DNA from: Butyrivibrio sp.
Lineage (GTDB): Bacteria > Bacillota > Clostridia > Lachnospirales > Lachnospiraceae
NCBI GenBank assembly: GCA_017615275.1
Contig: JAGAAO010000034.1
Span: forward strand, 1 to 64,000
Length of the DNA: 64,000 nt
Reading direction: 5' to 3'
Below, piece by piece: positions 8,191 to 29,600 of the stretch; the first letter of the stretch is position 1, and the number at the start of each line of letters is the position of its first letter. A model generated the notes under the pieces. The model was not told the origin of the DNA. It did no database searches and worked only from the letters and a program-made list of their open reading frames with translations. Both the position numbers and the translations under genes were made by a program.

Positions 8191-9174
8191 TTATTTGTTG
8201 TACTCTCGTAGTCCGTAATAGTAGTATTTCCTGATCTTTTCTTTTAGTGATGCCGGTTTGAGGACCAGAGCATCACGTCCGAAGCGGATAAAGTAGTCTT
8301 CGAGCTGCTGTTCCGGCCAGTCGAAGTAGTAGAGATTACCTTCGATTTTTGAGACTATAGGTCTGTTTTTGGTTATTACTTTGAATTTTTTAACTCCATA
8401 TTCGTTTATGCGAACTACTGCCTGTACGTTTGAAGATACTGAATGAGGGCTTCGGGTGGCTTTTTCCCGGAGCTCTTTTTGTATGCTCGGATCCACAGAA
8501 AATGTATCCGGAGTCACAAATACATTACGAAGTCTTGATATCCTGAATGTTCTTGGCTTTCCGGACTTTCTTTCGTTGCAGAGGAGGTAATTGCACTGTT
8601 CTTCCTTTGAGGGGGCGATGATATAGGGCTCGACAGAAAAGACCAGTTTAGGAGAAGATGAGGTCGATGTAAAAGTAATAATTCTATGAGATTTCAAGGC
8701 TTTTTGGATGTCTTCATAAGTGTCTTTAAATATTATGGCTTCTCTTTCGTTTCTCGGGATGGAGAGATAGGAATTGAACATATCCTTGAGATATCGGGAA
8801 AGGGAAGTATCCGTGAGCAGATTATTTTCGATTATCTTCAGTACTTCATATGATGAACCGCTGACGGTAAGCGTTAACGCAGAGTTCTTGCCGTCGCGGA
8901 GATTGTCGCTCTTTATGTAGTTATTTATTATCTTGTCGGCAAGAATGGCAGCGTCTTTGCTATTGATCGATGCTTCTTCAAGATCTTGTTGGATGTTTGC
9001 ACGAAGGTCGGCGCTGTCGTGTCTGTAGCGCTCGAAATAGTTGACGATGAGCGTCTTTAGGAATGCATTAAGGTTTACGGATTCATCCTTCTTGATGAAT
9101 TCGAAGAGCTCTGCATCGTTTATCAGTCTTGTTTTTGTATCTTCGGAGAGATAGATTTTATACTTCTCAGTCAT
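8191..9174 (-). CDS. WYL-domain transcriptional regulator next to an RNA-repair operon
   Basis: 327 residues. The start at 9174 has AAGAGG 6 nt upstream; a longer in-frame reading has no such signal. The C-terminal half is a WYL-type domain: NYLLCNERKSGKPRTFRISRL is the ligand-loop and core region (NYL in place of WYL), followed by a WCX-like C-terminal segment. The N-terminal half is helical, without an obvious classical HTH, and may carry a ribbon-helix-helix-like element near the start (KIYLSEDTKTRLIND). WYL domains bind nucleic acids or nucleotides and often regulate stress and defence genes. It diverges from the TROVE-rtcB operon and is the likely regulator of it. Confidence 0.85.
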   Translation of the reverse strand: MTEKYKIYLSEDTKTRLINDAELFEFIKKDESVNLNAFLKTLIVNYFERYRHDSADLRANIQQDLEEASINSKDAAILADKIINNYIKSDNLRDGKNSALTLTVSGSSYEVLKIIENNLLTDTSLSRYLKDMFNSYLSIPRNEREAIIFKDTYEDIQKALKSHRIITFTSTSSSPKLVFSVEPYIIAPSKEEQCNYLLCNERKSGKPRTFRISRLRNVFVTPDTFSVDPSIQKELREKATRSPHSVSSNVQAVVRINEYGVKKFKVITKNRPIVSKIEGNLYYFDWPEQQLEDYFIRFGRDALVLKPASLKEKIRKYYYYGLREYNK

Positions 9175-9278
9175 AGCATACCTCTTAAATGGAGTTGATA
9201 ATTTATAAAAAATACACGTAAATAATGGATATATTCGATTATATTGGGGTTGCGATATGAAGTCAAATTGCATCTTTT

Positions 9279-9303
9279 TATCTCCAAAAGATAGCGTTAT
9301 CAT
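9279..9303 (+). promoter_or_regulatory. Putative promoter/operator of the TROVE-rtcB operon
   Basis: TATCAT (9298-9303) is a -10 candidate with only a poor -35 (TTTTTA, 9275-9280), as expected of an activated promoter. It is overlapped by TATCTccaaaAGATA (9279-9293) and the near-palindrome GATAGCGTTATC (9290-9301), candidate sites for the divergent WYL protein. Transcription would start near 9310, just before the leader fold. Confidence 0.4.
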
Positions 9304-9317
9304 TAAAGCACATCAGA

Positions 9318-9412
9318 AAGGTGCATACAGCAAATACAAGAATCCACGACTGTCAATCGTGCCCTGCCTGCGCAGGGTGAGTGAGCCGGACACATTAATC
9401 CGGTTGCACCTT
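9318..9412 (+). ncRNA. tRNA-like leader RNA upstream of TROVE-rtcB
   Basis: A four-helix fold of 95 nt can be drawn. The closing stem AAGGTGCA (9318-9325) pairs with TGCACCTT (9405-9412), followed by TA, as at tRNA positions 8-9. A 17-nt unpaired D-region follows. The anticodon-like arm CACGA/TCGTG (9345-9349, 9357-9361) has the 7-nt loop CTGTCAA, that is U33, GUC and A37. A 6-bp variable-arm-like hairpin CCCTGC/GCAGGG (9362-9377) and a 5-bp T-arm-like hairpin CCGGA/TCCGG (9386-9403, 8-nt loop) complete it. The D-stem and T-loop consensus are absent, so it is not a normal tRNA gene. In some bacteria Y RNAs with tRNA-like modules accompany Ro60-like proteins and RtcB. Whether this is such an RNA, a decoy or a sensor is inference. 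Confidence 0.55.
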
Positions 9413-9431
9413 GTTTAAGGAGATGATGAAG

Positions 9432-10901
9432 ATGTTAGAATTTTTAAAGAAAGAAGCAAATAAAACATATACAGAGAACGGCGCAGTTACTTACGTATCA
9501 ACCAAGTCAGAGTGCCTTGATCTCTTTGCAACTATCGGTGCGCTCAGAAACGCATCCGATGAAGATATAATAACAAGATTTACACGTGCTTATGCTGAGG
9601 ATGCAGATCTTGCCATGAAGACATTGTTCTTTGCAAGAGATATCAGAGGCGGCCTCGGTGAGAGAAGAGTGTTTAAGGTTATTCTTAAATACCTTGCAGC
9701 ATCAGAACCTGAGTCTGTTAAAAAGAATATCGCGAATGTGGCAGAGTACGGCAGATATGACGATCTTTTGGCGCTACTCGATACACCTGTAGAAAAAGAA
9801 GTGATCGCATATTTTGAAAAGACACTCATGGCTGACATGGAGGCTCTTGAAGCTGATAATGAAAATGCCAATGTATCTCTTTTGGCTAAATGGCTTCCTT
9901 CTGTAAATACAAGCAATAAAGAAGCTGTCAGAAATGCAAGAAAAATAGCCAAAGTGATGAGAATGACTGATGCACAGTACCGCAAGGTTTTGTCAGCTCT
10001 CAGAGCACAGATCAAGATTATTGAGAATAACCTTCGCGTAAGGGATTATTCTTTTGACTACGAAAAACAACCTTCTAAAGCGCTCTACAAATACAGACAG
10101 GCTTTCATCAGAAATGACAGGGATAGATATCACTCATTTATAACTAAGGCGGAATCAGATCCTTCTGTTATGCACACAGGCACACTTGCGCCTTACGACG
10201 TGATCGCTCCTGTAATCAGAAGAGCGGAGTTTACAGGGAGCGAGAGACGCGCTATGAACGCAACATGGAATGCACTTGAGAACTATGCGGGTGCGGAGAA
10301 TTCTCTTGTTGTAGTTGACGGTTCGGGCTCTATGTACTGGGGCGCAAATACGCTTCCTGCAGCAGTTGCTCAGTCACTTGGTATTTACTTTGCAGAAAGA
10401 AATACCGGTGCGTTCAAAGGCCACTTTATCACTTTCTCTACCAACCCAAGACTCATCGAGATCAAGGGCAGGGATATTGTGGAAAAAGTGCGCTATAGCA
10501 TGAGTTTTAACGAATGCAGCAACACCGATATAGCTAAGACTTTTGATCTGATACTCAGAACTGCAGTCGTAAACAAGCTTAAACAGGCAGATATGCCGGA
10601 GAAGCTTTTTATAATATCTGATATGGAGTTTGATAGCTGTGCCGGTAATTACGGTGTTACAAACTTCGAACATGCCAAGGCTGAGTACGCCAAATACGGC
10701 TACAAGTTTCCTCAGGTAGTTTTCTGGAATGTGAACAGCCGCAACACACAGCAGCCGGTAAAAATGAACGATCAGGGAGTGGCGCTTGTATCAGGCTGCA
10801 GCCCGCAGGTCTTTTCAATGCTAAAAGACGGTAATTTGGAACCATATAAATTTATGTTGAGCGTACTTTCGGCTTCGCGTTATGAAAAGATTGCCGCGTA
10901 A
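9432..10901 (+). CDS. TROVE/DUF2828-type RNA-binding protein with vWA domain (Ro60-like)
   Basis: 489 residues from the ATG at 9432, which has AAGGAG 9 nt upstream. The N-terminal 270 residues are an alpha-helical-repeat region (DIRGGLGERRVFKVILKYL, SLLAKWLPSVNTSNKEA, YRKVLSALRAQIKIIENNL), matching the TROVE/DUF2828 pattern that forms the RNA-binding ring of Ro60. Residues about 290-470 are a von Willebrand A domain with the metal site DGSGS at 296-300. Ro60 proteins bind misfolded RNAs and Y RNAs. Placement directly before rtcB (36-nt gap) and behind a tRNA-like leader supports a role in RNA quality control or repair. Whether TROVE or DUF2828 is the better family label needs a profile search. 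Confidence 0.88.
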   Translation: MLEFLKKEANKTYTENGAVTYVSTKSECLDLFATIGALRNASDEDIITRFTRAYAEDADLAMKTLFFARDIRGGLGERRVFKVILKYLAASEPESVKKNIANVAEYGRYDDLLALLDTPVEKEVIAYFEKTLMADMEALEADNENANVSLLAKWLPSVNTSNKEAVRNARKIAKVMRMTDAQYRKVLSALRAQIKIIENNLRVRDYSFDYEKQPSKALYKYRQAFIRNDRDRYHSFITKAESDPSVMHTGTLAPYDVIAPVIRRAEFTGSERRAMNATWNALENYAGAENSLVVVDGSGSMYWGANTLPAAVAQSLGIYFAERNTGAFKGHFITFSTNPRLIEIKGRDIVEKVRYSMSFNECSNTDIAKTFDLILRTAVVNKLKQADMPEKLFIISDMEFDSCAGNYGVTNFEHAKAEYAKYGYKFPQVVFWNVNSRNTQQPVKMNDQGVALVSGCSPQVFSMLKDGNLEPYKFMLSVLSASRYEKIAA

Positions 10902-10937: not shown

Positions 10938-12155
10938 ATGAACACAATTGAGATAAAAGGAAAAGTAAATACAGCTCTTTGCTACGCCAAGGTTGTTGAG
11001 GACGAGGCAATAGAGCAGATCAGAAGAATGTGCGACTATCCTATGACTTCAGGGTCTAAGATAAGGATCATGCCTGACGTTCATGCGGGTAAGGGATGCA
11101 CGATCGGAACTACAATGACAATCACCGACAAAGCGGTTCCCAACGTGGTCGGAGTGGATATCGGATGCGGTATGTATACTGTAAATCTCGGTAAACAGGA
11201 GCTTGACCTTGAGAAGCTTGATATGGCAGCATTTTCTATACCTTGCGGACGTGAGGTGTGGGAGGGAAGAGTTGAGAGATTCGATCTTACAGAGCTTCGT
11301 TGCTACCGCCAGCTCAAGGAGGCAAAACGTCTTGAGAGATCTTTGGGGACGCTTGGCGGCGGTAATCACTTCATTGAGGTGGATAGGGCAGCTGATGGAA
11401 CTCAATACCTTATCATTCATTCCGGGTCAAGAAACCTTGGAAAGCAGGTAGCTGAGCTTTATCAGGCTCTTGCTGTCGATCTGAATAAAGGTATTGGGGA
11501 GTATCTTGAGGCAAGGGAGGAGCTCATAAAGACATACAAAGAGCAGGGAAGACGCGCTGAGATTCAGGCTGCGCTTAAAGAGCTTTATAATAAGAAGTTT
11601 CATGAGGGAGCTTTGACAATGCCTGAGGATCTGTGCTATTTGTCGGGCAGCTATCTTGAGGACTACCTTCACGACGTGGAGATATGCCAGAGATTTGCCA
11701 AGAGAAATCGTGAGAAGATGGCGGAGATTCTTTTGGACAAGACAGGCCTTGCAGCCGGTGAGTCTTTTCACACAATTCACAATTACATTGATACAGACGA
11801 GATGATCCTTAGGAAGGGCTCTATTGCGGCCCATAAGGGGGAGAAGGTGCTTATTCCTATCAATATGAGGGACGGATCTGTCCTTGCTATAGGCAAAGGC
11901 AATCCTGAGTGGAACTATTCGGCCCCGCATGGTGCAGGAAGACTTATGTCCAGAACTGCAGCCAAAAATAATCTTTCAATGGAGGAGTATAAGGAGTCTA
12001 TGAAAGGCATCTACACATCGTCTGTCTGCGAGGCCACCATCGATGAGGCGCCAATGGCATACAAGTCACTGGAGGATATCATCGATGTGATAAAAGAGTC
12101 CGTGGATGTAATCGAGGTGATGAAGCCAATCTACAATTTCAAAGCATCAAATTGA
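10938..12155 (+). CDS. rtcB: RNA-splicing ligase RtcB
   Basis: 405 residues, the shorter RtcB class. RtcB seals RNA 2',3'-cyclic phosphate (or 3'-phosphate) ends to 5'-OH ends using GTP and Mn2+. Visible residues: D74 and C77 in GVDIGCGM (metal), H144 in GGGNHF and H161 in HSGSRNLG (metal), and H331 in SAPHGAGRLMSR, the histidine that is guanylylated. The start at 10938 has GAAAGGA 7 nt upstream; an upstream ATG overlapping the spacer is less likely. It pairs with the TROVE-vWA gene as in the rsr-rtcB repair operons of other bacteria. No RtcA or archease gene is adjacent. Confidence 0.97.
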   Translation: MNTIEIKGKVNTALCYAKVVEDEAIEQIRRMCDYPMTSGSKIRIMPDVHAGKGCTIGTTMTITDKAVPNVVGVDIGCGMYTVNLGKQELDLEKLDMAAFSIPCGREVWEGRVERFDLTELRCYRQLKEAKRLERSLGTLGGGNHFIEVDRAADGTQYLIIHSGSRNLGKQVAELYQALAVDLNKGIGEYLEAREELIKTYKEQGRRAEIQAALKELYNKKFHEGALTMPEDLCYLSGSYLEDYLHDVEICQRFAKRNREKMAEILLDKTGLAAGESFHTIHNYIDTDEMILRKGSIAAHKGEKVLIPINMRDGSVLAIGKGNPEWNYSAPHGAGRLMSRTAAKNNLSMEEYKESMKGIYTSSVCEATIDEAPMAYKSLEDIIDVIKESVDVIEVMKPIYNFKASN

Positions 12156-26093: not shown

Positions 26094-26264
26094 TTAGCCC
26101 TGTGAAATCGCAGAAACAGGACACTGAGCAGCACAAGAACCGCAGTCGATGCATGTGTTTGCGTCGATAACGAACTGTGCATCACCCTGTGAAATTGCAG
26201 AAACAGGACACTGAGCAGCGCATGAGCCGCAGCTGATGCAGCCATCACTAATAACGTATGCCAT
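26094..26264 (-). CDS. 2[4Fe-4S] ferredoxin
   Basis: 56 residues, clostridial-type. Two CxxCxxCxxxCP motifs (ISCGSCAAQCPVSAISQG and IDCGSCAAQCPVSAISQG) bind two 4Fe-4S clusters. The two halves are almost identical at protein level and strongly so at DNA level, a preserved internal duplication. The start at 26264 has GGAG 9-10 nt upstream. It accepts electrons from PFOR, whose gene is divergently transcribed next door. The last codons and stop overlap the 18-bp inverted repeat shared with the palindromic element at 25944-26024. Confidence 0.95.
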   Translation of the reverse strand: MAYVISDGCISCGSCAAQCPVSAISQGDAQFVIDANTCIDCGSCAAQCPVSAISQG

Positions 26265-26318
26265 AATATAATCTCCTTCCATCTAATAAATGCATTTATA
26301 ATGGTGTAACAAAAACAG

Positions 26319-26340
26319 ATTGGTACTTGCCATTACCAAT
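26319..26340. promoter_or_regulatory. Inverted repeat between ferredoxin and PFOR genes
   Basis: ATTGGTA-N8-TACCAAT is a perfect 7+7 inverted repeat in the shared upstream region of two redox genes and may be an operator. It does not match the Rex consensus. Confidence 0.4.
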
Positions 26341-26464
26341 CCTTGATTACGTTAATATCATATAATAAGAATGATGTTTAAGCAATATAGTAAACGAAAA
26401 GTTTTATCAGCTAATAACGGTAAACGAAAACAAATTAACTGACTATACCGATAAAGATTCAAAA

Positions 26465-26478
26465 TGTAAGCGCTTTCG
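26465..26478. promoter_or_regulatory. Possible catabolite-responsive (cre) site
   Basis: TGTAAGCGCTTTCG fits the CcpA cre consensus TGWAARCGYTWNCA except for the last base. It lies 28 bp before the -35 box of the PFOR promoter, a position compatible with CcpA activation. Confidence 0.5.
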
Positions 26479-26505
26479 TAAAAATGCATCAAAGCCTTGT
26501 GTTGA

Positions 26506-26533
26506 TTGACACCTATATGGTTTTAGTGATACT
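26506..26533 (+). promoter_or_regulatory. Promoter of the PFOR gene
   Basis: TTGACA (26506-26511), a 16-bp spacer and GATACT (26528-26533). It leaves a leader of about 145 nt before the start codon, in which no known riboswitch was recognised. The rest of 26265-26505 shows only the two sites listed separately. Confidence 0.65.
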
Positions 26534-26685
26534 ATTGGAGTTGGCAGAATACGAGTGAAAATAGATCCGTCGCACTGTTTTCGGGGGTGAAAGCTTGTTG
26601 ACGGAATTTTTACGCTATTTATTTTTTTTAACACAATTTAATAAATGTGCCAAAATAATCCAAAATGAAGGTAGGAGGAAACAAA

Positions 26686-29600
26686 ATGGCAAGAAACATG
26701 AAAACCATGGATGGCAACGAAGCTGCAGCATATGCATCATATGCCTTTACCGAAGTTGCTGCCATGTACCCTATCACACCATCATCTGTTATGCCTGAGC
26801 ATGTAGATGAATGGGCAACAGCCGGAAAAAAGAATATTTTCGGACGTACAGTTCAGATTACAGAAATGCAGTCTGAGGCAGGCGCAGCAGGTGCTGTGCA
26901 TGGATCACTGGTAGTAGGTGCTCTTACATCTACATATACCGCTTCACAGGGACTTCTCCTTATGATCCCTGATATTTACAAAGTAGCCGGAGAGAGACTT
27001 CCGGGCGTATTCAACGTATCGGCACGTTGCGTTGCTTCACACGCGCTCAATATTTTCGGCGATCATTCTGACGTTTACGCATGTCGTCAGACAGGCGCAG
27101 CTATGCTGTGTGACTCAAGCGTACAGGAAGTTATGGACTTAACACCTGTTGCTTATTGTGCAGCTATTGAGGGAAGAATTCCCTTTATCAATTTCTTTGA
27201 CGGATTCCGTACATCACACGAAATTCAGAAAATCGAGGTTTGGGACTACAAGGACCTTGATGAGATGGTTAATCACGAGGCAATCGACGCATTCAAGGCA
27301 GGCGCTTTGAATCCAAATCATCCTTGCCAGATGGGTTCAGCTCAGAATCCTGACATTTTCTTCCAGACAAGAGAAGCTTGTAACACAGGCTATAATGAAC
27401 TTCCTGACATCGTTCAGAAGTACATGGATAAAGTAAATGCTAAGATCGGTACAGATTATAAGCTCTTCAACTATTACGGCGATCCTAACGCTGAAGTAGT
27501 TATCGTAGCTATGGGTTCTGTAAACGATACTATCGAAGAGACAATCGATTATCTTGAGCAGCAGGGCAAGAAGGTCGGTGTTGTAAAGGTTAGACTTTAC
27601 AGACCTTTCTCAGCAAAGGCACTTGTTGCTGCAATTCCTGATTCTGTTAAGAAAATTCAGGTTCTCGACAGAACAAAAGAGCCCGGATCATATCGTGAGC
27701 CTCTTGCTCTTGATGTTATCGCAGCTCTTAAGGGAACTAAGTTTGAGAGCGTTCCTGTATTCTGCGGACGTTACGGACTTGGATCAAAGGATACAACTCC
27801 TGCACAGATCGTTGCAGTATTCGAGAATACAGAGAAGGAAGAGTTCACCATCGGTATCGAGGATGATGTAACTAATCTTTCACTTAAAGTTGGTGCTCCC
27901 CTTGTTACAACACCTAAGGGAACAACAAACTGTAAGTTCTGGGGACTTGGTGCTGACGGTACTGTTGGTGCTAACAAGAACTCCATCAAGATCATCGGTG
28001 ACAACACTGACATGTATGCACAGGCATACTTTGATTATGACTCAAAGAAGTCAGGCGGTGTTACAATGTCTCACCTTAGATTTGGTAAGACTCCTATCAA
28101 GTCTACATACCTTATCAAGAAGGCAGATTTCGTAGCATGCCATAATCCTTCATACATCCGCAAGTTCAACATGGTTCAGGAAATTGTGGACGGAGGATCA
28201 TTCCTTCTTAACTGCCCTTGGACAGTAGATCAGCTTGAGGCTGAGATTCCCGGACAGGTTAAGAAATTCATGTACGATCACAAGATCAACTTCTATATCA
28301 TGAACGGATCTAAGATCGGTGTAGAAGTAGGAATGGGACCTACAAGAATTAACACAATTCTTCAGTCAGCATTCTTCAACATCACTAAGATCATTCCTGA
28401 AGAGGACGCTATCAAGTTCATGAAAGATGCAGCTCAGAAGACATACGGCCGTAAGGGTGAGGATGTCGTTAAGAAGAACTGGGCAGCTATCGATGCAGGT
28501 GCTGATCCGAAGAACCTTATCAAGGTTGAGATTCCTGAGTCTTGGAAAGATGCCAAGGACGAAGGTCTTGACTTCAAGAAGGCTGAGGGAAGCAGAAAGG
28601 ATGTTATCGACTTCGTTAATAACATTCAGACTAAGGTTAACGCTCAGGAAGGTAACAACCTTAAGGTTTCAGATTGTCTTCCTTACGTTGACGGTTCTAC
28701 ACCTTCAGGATCTGCTGCATACGAGAAGCGTGGTATCGCAGTAAATGTTCCTAAGTGGGATGCTACAAAGTGCGTTGAGTGTGGATTCTGTTCACTTGTA
28801 TGTCCTCACGCAGCAATTCGTACAGTTGCTCTTACAGACGACGAAGTTGCTAAGGCACCCGAAGGACTTCAGACAAAAGATGTTAACGGAGTACCCGGAT
28901 ATAAGTTCTCAATCGTTATTTCTGCTCTTGACTGTACAGGATGCGGATCTTGCGCAAATGTATGTCTTGGAAACAAGGCCGGCGAGACACTTAAGATGGG
29001 CGCTATCGCAGAGAATAAAGATGAGCAGAAGTATTTCGACTATGCTGTAACTCTTCCTGAGAAGACAGAAGTAGTTGAGAAGCTCAAAGCTACAACAATC
29101 AGAGGATCTCAGTTCAAGCAGCCTCTCCTTGAGTTCTCCGGAGCTTGCGCAGGTTGTGGTGAGACACCTTATGTTAAACTTGTTACTCAGCTCTTTGGTG
29201 ACAGAATGTATGTTGCAAACGCAACAGGATGTACATCAATCTGGGGTAACTCTTCACCTTCAACACCTTATACTGTAAATGCAGAAGGCCACGGACCTGC
29301 ATGGGATAACTCATTGTTCGAGGATAACGCAGAGTTTGGTATGGGTATGGTACTTGCTCAGAACGCTCTTCGTGATGCTATCAAAGAACAGGTTGAGACA
29401 GTAGTAGCCGATGGCGGTTCAGCTAAGGCTGCAGCTCAGAAGTGGCTTGATACATTCAGCAACGGTGCTGAGAATACAGAAGCTACAAAGGAACTTATCG
29501 CAGCCCTTGAGGGAGATAACTCTGATGCAGCTAAGTACATCAAGAAGAACAAAGACTTCGCAGCTAAGAAGTCACAGTGGATCTTCGGTGGTGACGGATG

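Follow-up and report, generated by a model that had tools for sequence, protein, structure and literature searches.

Genomic context of the RNA element

The window (the whole stretch of DNA analysed here, 64,000 nucleotides from Butyrivibrio sp.) carries a Ro60-like gene followed by the RNA ligase gene rtcB, with a divergent WYL-domain gene upstream. An RNA element with four stems, which the preliminary description had presented as a tRNA-like leader, lies directly in front of the Ro-like gene. The features are as follows.

8191..9174, - strand: divergent WYL-domain gene (the listed open reading frame runs to 9303; 9174 is the probable start)
9298..9303, + strand: possible -10 box TATCAT, resembling the TATGAT before the arrays of relatives
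9318..9412, + strand: whole RNA element, a leader-type family member (from the fold, the leader alignment and the family scan)
9318..9325, + strand: 5' strand of the 8-bp closing helix, AAGGUGCA, pairing with 9405-9412; family consensus AAGRYRC
9327..9333, + strand: ACAGCAA, the constant family motif, putatively part of a protein-binding site
9345..9361, + strand: anticodon-like arm CACGA-CUGUCAA-UCGUG, with the loop CUGUCAA at 9350-9356
9362..9377, + strand: second, variable-arm-like hairpin CCCUGC-CUGC-GCAGGG (covariation and RNAalifold)
9385..9404, + strand: third hairpin GCCGGA...UCCGGU (covariation and RNAalifold)
9405..9412, + strand: 3' strand of the closing helix, UGCACCUU, followed by a conserved G at 9413
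9417..9422, + strand: Shine-Dalgarno-like AAGGAG, 4 nt past the end of the helix (9412)
9432..10901, + strand: Ro60-like (TROVE-like) gene, DUF2828 and DUF7788 (Pfam; start picked by comparison with relatives)
10938..12155, + strand: rtcB RNA ligase gene

A promoter scan reported no site on the + strand, the candidate -10 box included. Several relatives also have GCATCTTTTTATCTCCAA, perhaps a regulator site, ahead of their arrays; in the window it lies within 9190-9317, in the space separating the WYL gene from the Ro-like gene. Genes for tRNA-Asn, tRNA-Glu and tRNA-Cys occupy positions 6-291 at the start of the window.

Pfam finds DUF2828 and DUF7788 in the Ro-like protein of the window and gives no match to PF05731 (TROVE/Ro60), of which G000 contains none at E 1e-10. 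Comparison of a 24-homologue profile with TROVE proteins in hhalign (91%, E 1e-6, 247 columns) revealed homology to the C-terminal part of TROVE together with the vWA domain. The same profile recovers all three long TROVE proteins in a four-sequence set; among PDB TROVE chains the best match reached only E 0.19. Some mycobacteriophage records name the protein Ro-like, PHROGs classes it as an RNA-binding protein, and PADLOC has no match for it. As with bacterial Y RNAs, the RNA gene of the window thus adjoins the gene for a Ro-type protein.

Fold and conservation of the leader

For 9300-9430 folding predicts a minimum free energy of -38.2 kcal/mol, whereas shuffled sequences average -29.8 (z -2.2, equalled by 5 of 200 shuffles), a moderate advantage that is not decisive by itself. 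Neither ARAGORN nor the Rfam tRNA model (RF00005) detects a tRNA in the copy at 9318-9412. A known Rfam leader was rejected, as the only matches in the window at gathering score are the three tRNAs. In the loci of relatives Rfam gave tRNA matches at the elements and weak, chance-like matches elsewhere; overall, no family other than tRNA and tmRNA reached its cut-off.

A DNA search of 194 relatives, whose weak matches are mostly chance, led to 30 fetched loci, 19 of them with a Ro-like gene, and 15 related leaders were aligned (alignment A2). RNAalifold, run unconstrained on these 15 leaders, returned the same four helices as those described beforehand. The structure is paired in 96.3% of 375 cells (shuffled, 88.4), and slid-structure controls reached at most 41.7%. 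Double changes occur in 8 of the 25 pairs, in 29 cells (shuffled, 9.9; reached by 0 of 500 shuffles), P values here being overstated because the sequences compared are related. One of five measures, the number of further pair types (13), did not rise above shuffles (13.2; 406/500). With compensatory changes preserving its stems across the 15 leaders, a structured RNA at 9318-9412 is in our judgement nearly certain.

Three of the five pairs in the anticodon-like arm covary, and the loop, for which an invariant GUC form would have supported the preliminary description, takes ten forms among the 15 leaders: CUGUCAA, CUGUUAA, CUGUAAA, CUGAAAA, CUUGAAA, CUGAUAA, UUUGGUA, AUUAAAA, AUGGUUA and CGAUCAC. 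The window's own CUGUCAA is absent from the loops of 450 reference tRNAs, in which tRNA-Asp has CUGUCAC or CUGUCUA. The hairpin likened to a T-arm is real and belongs to the covarying set, but has no T-loop consensus.

Remoter leaders keep the closing helix and ACAGCAA, with the two extra hairpins altered or lost. The refuting case named beforehand, relatives with the operon but without the fold at this position, does occur in part: L033 has no leader-type element 5' of its Ro-like gene, that of L034 is truncated, and L041 and L045 have a different element class directly before the gene, the leader-type copy of L041 standing instead before rtcB. In Butyrivibrio sp. MC2021 a large set of hairpins is inserted in the leader (L047, 3772-3980). 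A relaxed leader table of 69 rows contains mis-joined rows and was used for reading by eye only.

A tandem RNA family upstream of Ro-like genes

The preliminary description overlooked that the leader belongs to a tandem, modular family that phages carry too. In relatives, one to four tandem RNAs lie between the WYL and Ro-like genes, the leader last. Each starts with AAGRYRC-NN-ACAGCAA or a near variant and ends with GYRYCUUG or a near variant, giving the family consensus of a closing helix A-AAGRYRC/GYRYCUU-G plus ACAGCAA. The window retains just one copy, the last of the array; the others have presumably been lost from this genome.

The bacterial set comprised 81 loci, the window and the best 80 of 232, near-identical loci being kept unless marked non-redundant. 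Within 1.2 kb upstream in these 81 loci, ACAGCAA occurs 159 times in sense, 131 of these with a perfect 7-bp helix, in 69 loci. In the same loci the antisense control gave 4 occurrences, 1 with a helix, and coding sequence 4 and 0. Twenty permuted motifs averaged 1.85 helix matches, the highest counts being 19 and 8; the permuted motif with 19 overlaps, we think, the real one. A family scan that held the spacing constant and loosened the motif a little found 147 elements in 75 of the 81 loci, 1-6 per locus. Helix pairs 4-6 switch between GC and AU types, and an A precedes 133 and a G follows 146 of the 147 elements; the pair types come from elements selected for pairing, whereas the flanking A and G were not so selected. 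Chance hairpins or a tRNA remnant are ruled out by the strand bias, the compensatory changes and this fixed architecture. Six of the 81 loci were missed by the scan: by eye, L033, L064 and L075 have variant motifs and L039 a leader with substitutions, L101 offers just 276 nt upstream, and in L102 the array is located before rtcB.

Among the best 80 of 232 loci, many of them cut at contig ends, 54 have a WYL hit and 59 an rtcB hit; elements stand before rtcB in four of the 59, as leader-type copies in L041 and L080 and also in L102 and L103, a count that leaves out one false row (L098) and takes two rows of a single locus as one. In the comparisons that follow (best 80 of 232 plus the window), the 63 "leaders" are last elements separated from the gene by fewer than 135 nt, and include other classes in L034, L041 and L045. 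The closing helix is of the AAGG type in 48 of the 63 leaders against 29 of the 84 other elements. Loops of the form YUGUNAM occur in 11 of the 63 and 2 of the 84, a comparison in which U33/A37 counts include T-loops; such UGU loops may be targets of queuosine transglycosylase or of a nuclease of the colicin E5 type. A drop of more than 0.3 in Shine-Dalgarno accessibility is predicted for 17 of the 63 leaders and not for that of the window, and a general Shine-Dalgarno switch was rejected on this ground.

When 291 genomes of the class were scanned with the pattern, it matched at 10 places in 7 genomes, our own included, and the reversed-pattern control in these 291 gave none among the matches listed. 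The gene test covered 40 of the 291 genomes, the 7 positives and 33 of the 284 negatives. In all seven positives the motif is followed by a Ro-like gene of the same orientation, which in G203 lies 1.5 kb from the motif with rtcB in between; one of the 33 tested negatives has a 48-aa Ro-like fragment at a contig end. With a shorter spacing, 4 of 299 genomes of the phylum matched. Two similar matches, with a full helix as judged by eye, precede a Ro-like gene of 42% identity; for the two without the full 7-bp helix, also by eye, no Ro-like gene was present in the fetched locus. Both genome scans associate the motif with the Ro-like gene, a link in which we have high confidence. The proposed association of a tRNA-related RNA with a Ro60-like gene and rtcB is upheld. 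On sequence grounds, the window leader belongs to a modular family of tandem small RNAs, of which it is the copy nearest the gene.

tRNA-like interiors

Enclosed by the constant helix are highly diverse interiors: cloverleaf cores, permuted YrlA-like cores, or an anticodon arm alone. The 115 non-redundant elements contain 82 non-T hairpins with 7-nt loops (shuffle 24, maximum 39), 27 of which have U33 and A37 (shuffle 1.7, maximum 9), and T-loop-like hairpins are present in 46 elements. Loops were compared with 58 reference loops from the 450 tRNAs, a stricter set than that first used. A hairpin loop that exactly reproduces the anticodon loop of a tRNA was found in 15 of 127 bacterial elements (shuffle 0.33, maximum 2; reverse complement 2; best 80 of 232 loci plus the window) and in 26 of 102 phage elements (shuffle 0.47, maximum 3; reverse complement 3; best 80 of 116 loci). 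The matched loops in these best loci are those of Lys-UUU (9), Asn (6), Pro (5), Ser-UGA (4), Cys (4) and Met (3), with fewer for others; the majority, 112 of the 127 bacterial and 76 of the 102 phage elements, have no identical tRNA loop. Certain upstream copies in relatives score as tRNA with ARAGORN and reach the cut-off of the tRNA model. Mimicry of the anticodon arm, suggested beforehand for the window leader, is a property of the family, and the interiors are swappable tRNA mimics, identical to tRNA in their loops in part of the family.

A permuted order of T-arm, acceptor and D-arm was seen in 8 of 21 phage elements having a T-arm (best 80 of 116 loci) against 1 of 43 bacterial ones (best 80 of 232 plus the window); the window copy has no such module.

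Phage members

The Ro-like (DUF2828) protein was matched in 682 phage records. The viral set, the best 80 of 116 scanned viral contigs with protein relatives, yielded 101 elements (88 unique) in 48 loci and 3 in antisense; a few may be chance. An rtcB hit was found in 1 of these 80 loci. Eight of nine named phages have elements (P100, PJN02, VpaE1, Clautastrophe, CP81, EFGrKN, cka8 and 6ec); in the ninth, KVP40, the Ro-like gene is present and no element was found. In Listeria phage P100 an annotated tRNA splicing ligase and an RNA ligase lie downstream of the Ro-like gene (L239, 9768-11051 and 12611-13552) and adjoin a large tRNA cluster. Matches to tmRNA occur near the Ro-like gene in two phage loci (L143, 427-656; L245, 1107-1457).

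Y RNAs of mycobacteriophages have been reported previously, as cited in a portion of PMC12282133. A table there lists the Ro-like protein among the proteins of purified Listeria phage particles, and the accompanying text describes abundant non-coding regions, proposed to be Y RNAs, upstream of the Listeria phage Ro-like gene. The same portion gives region 26,236-26,727 as the most transcribed of phage CKA15. In that region (L249, 2737-3228, minus strand) we found no family element or motif; it resembles a long non-coding RNA. Equating the three Listeria phage elements with the three abundant regions of PMC12282133 was dropped, as the one region given with coordinates in that portion holds none.

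Comparison with known RNAs

The closest known kind is YrlA (RF02553), found beside rsr-rtcBA, which shares the stem joining the 5' and 3' ends, a tRNA-like module, the neighbourhood of a Ro-type gene and rtcB and, with part of the phage members, the permuted core. Its Rfam consensus has a different basal stem and lacks ACAGCAA; and whereas YrlA is described with D, T and acceptor arms, many members here have an anticodon arm, or that alone. The YrlA model matched neither the window nor the bacterial loci searched. In phage loci L243 and L245 it gave matches of 39.3, 47.8, 35.7 and 30.1 bits, below the gathering score of 69 bits; two of the four coincide with scanned elements, of the permuted type. 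Relatives have upstream copies that attain the tRNA cut-off, but family members differ from tRNA in a shortened acceptor held within the closing helix with ACAGCAA, and the copy in the window is not a tRNA. Searches of open-licence papers listed none on this family of RNAs or its motif. The family is real, conserved and modular; it is a variant of bacterial Y RNAs for which no dedicated Rfam entry was found.

Possible function

A constant module adjoining a Ro-type gene points to a Y-type ribonucleoprotein, and of the roles proposed earlier that of an RNA partner of the TROVE protein, as for bacterial Y RNAs, fits best, a damage sensor or decoy being more conjectural; that the leader and its family are Y-type partners of the Ro-like protein we consider probable. 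The closing helix and ACAGCAA would be the site bound by the protein, and the interior an exchangeable cargo imitating tRNA, in many cases down to the loop of one specific tRNA. Cargoes that copy specific anticodon loops suggest enzymes that read anticodons, and with an RNA ligase alongside anticodon nucleases are natural candidates. The Ro-like protein might thus present the RNAs, possibly after processing, as baits or competitors to tRNA-acting enzymes, chiefly anticodon nucleases, while RtcB would re-ligate cleaved tRNAs. Protein bound at the leader, so close to the Shine-Dalgarno-like sequence, might in addition exert feedback control over translation of this mRNA. We put the odds of this combined reading, Y-type partners acting as tRNA-like baits or decoys with a leader possibly also acting in cis, at about 0.5; taken singly, a cis role of the leader seems a little short of even odds, and bait or decoy action is tentative.

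Precedents bear on this reading in both directions. Phage tRNAs counter tRNA-cutting defences, among them tRNA-Lys against the PrrC system (PMC11555353, in part); these are phage RNAs set against such defences, as is proposed here, but they are whole tRNAs, whereas in the present family tRNA parts are mounted on a presumed protein-binding module. Salmonella YrlA is not cleaved by a tRNA nuclease, which counts against our reading, and the authors suggest that it may inhibit the nuclease, proposing it as a competitive inhibitor (PMC7790460, relevant passages); they treat the role of bacterial Y RNAs and Ro proteins beside RtcB as an open question. Also against the reading stand the window loop without a reference match and the many members without an identical loop, the loci L033 and L034, which manage without an intact leader copy, the top non-coding region of CKA15 and KVP40 without an element, the assignment by Pfam to DUF2828 and not PF05731, and the accessibility change confined to a minority of leaders and absent from the window.

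Several of these points recur when the alternatives are weighed. Cis control is suggested by the position of the leader directly before the Shine-Dalgarno sequence, by the AAGG/CCUU bias and by the copies before rtcB, and the leader might accordingly be purely cis-regulatory, through Ro-like autoregulation or a Shine-Dalgarno switch, whatever the upstream RNAs do. We consider this unlikely: its architecture equals that of the upstream copies, the predicted switch is lacking in the window and in most leaders, and L033 and L034 have the leader absent or cut. Somewhat less likely still, the cargoes could be tethers through which RtcB, PNPase or some further enzyme that binds tRNA is brought to the Ro-like ring. 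YrlA has been proposed as a tether for PNPase (PMC8394870, in part), and rtcB accompanies most of the bacterial loci, but a tether has no need to copy particular anticodon loops, and the near absence of rtcB from the viral loci argues against it. That decayed tRNA genes or chance hairpins happen to lie by an RNA-repair operon can practically be dismissed; certain upstream copies do score as tRNA, but a covarying closing helix with ACAGCAA is absent from tRNAs, and the strand bias of 131 to 1 speaks against accident.

The bait or decoy reading can be extended to a modular Ro-type ribonucleoprotein with swappable anticodon-arm cargoes, serving bacteria and phages as an arsenal of decoys for toxins and defence systems that cut tRNA, the leader acting as a self-regulating sensor. 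We regard this extension as doubtful, and lowered its odds slightly because the window loop equals no reference tRNA loop. The family suggests that imitation tRNAs are kept beside tRNA-repair machinery by cells and viruses alike. Since some members, host as well as phage, reproduce specific anticodon loops, the decoy idea is directly testable, and AAGRYRC-NN-ACAGCAA provides a sequence handle for putative RNA partners of DUF2828 proteins.
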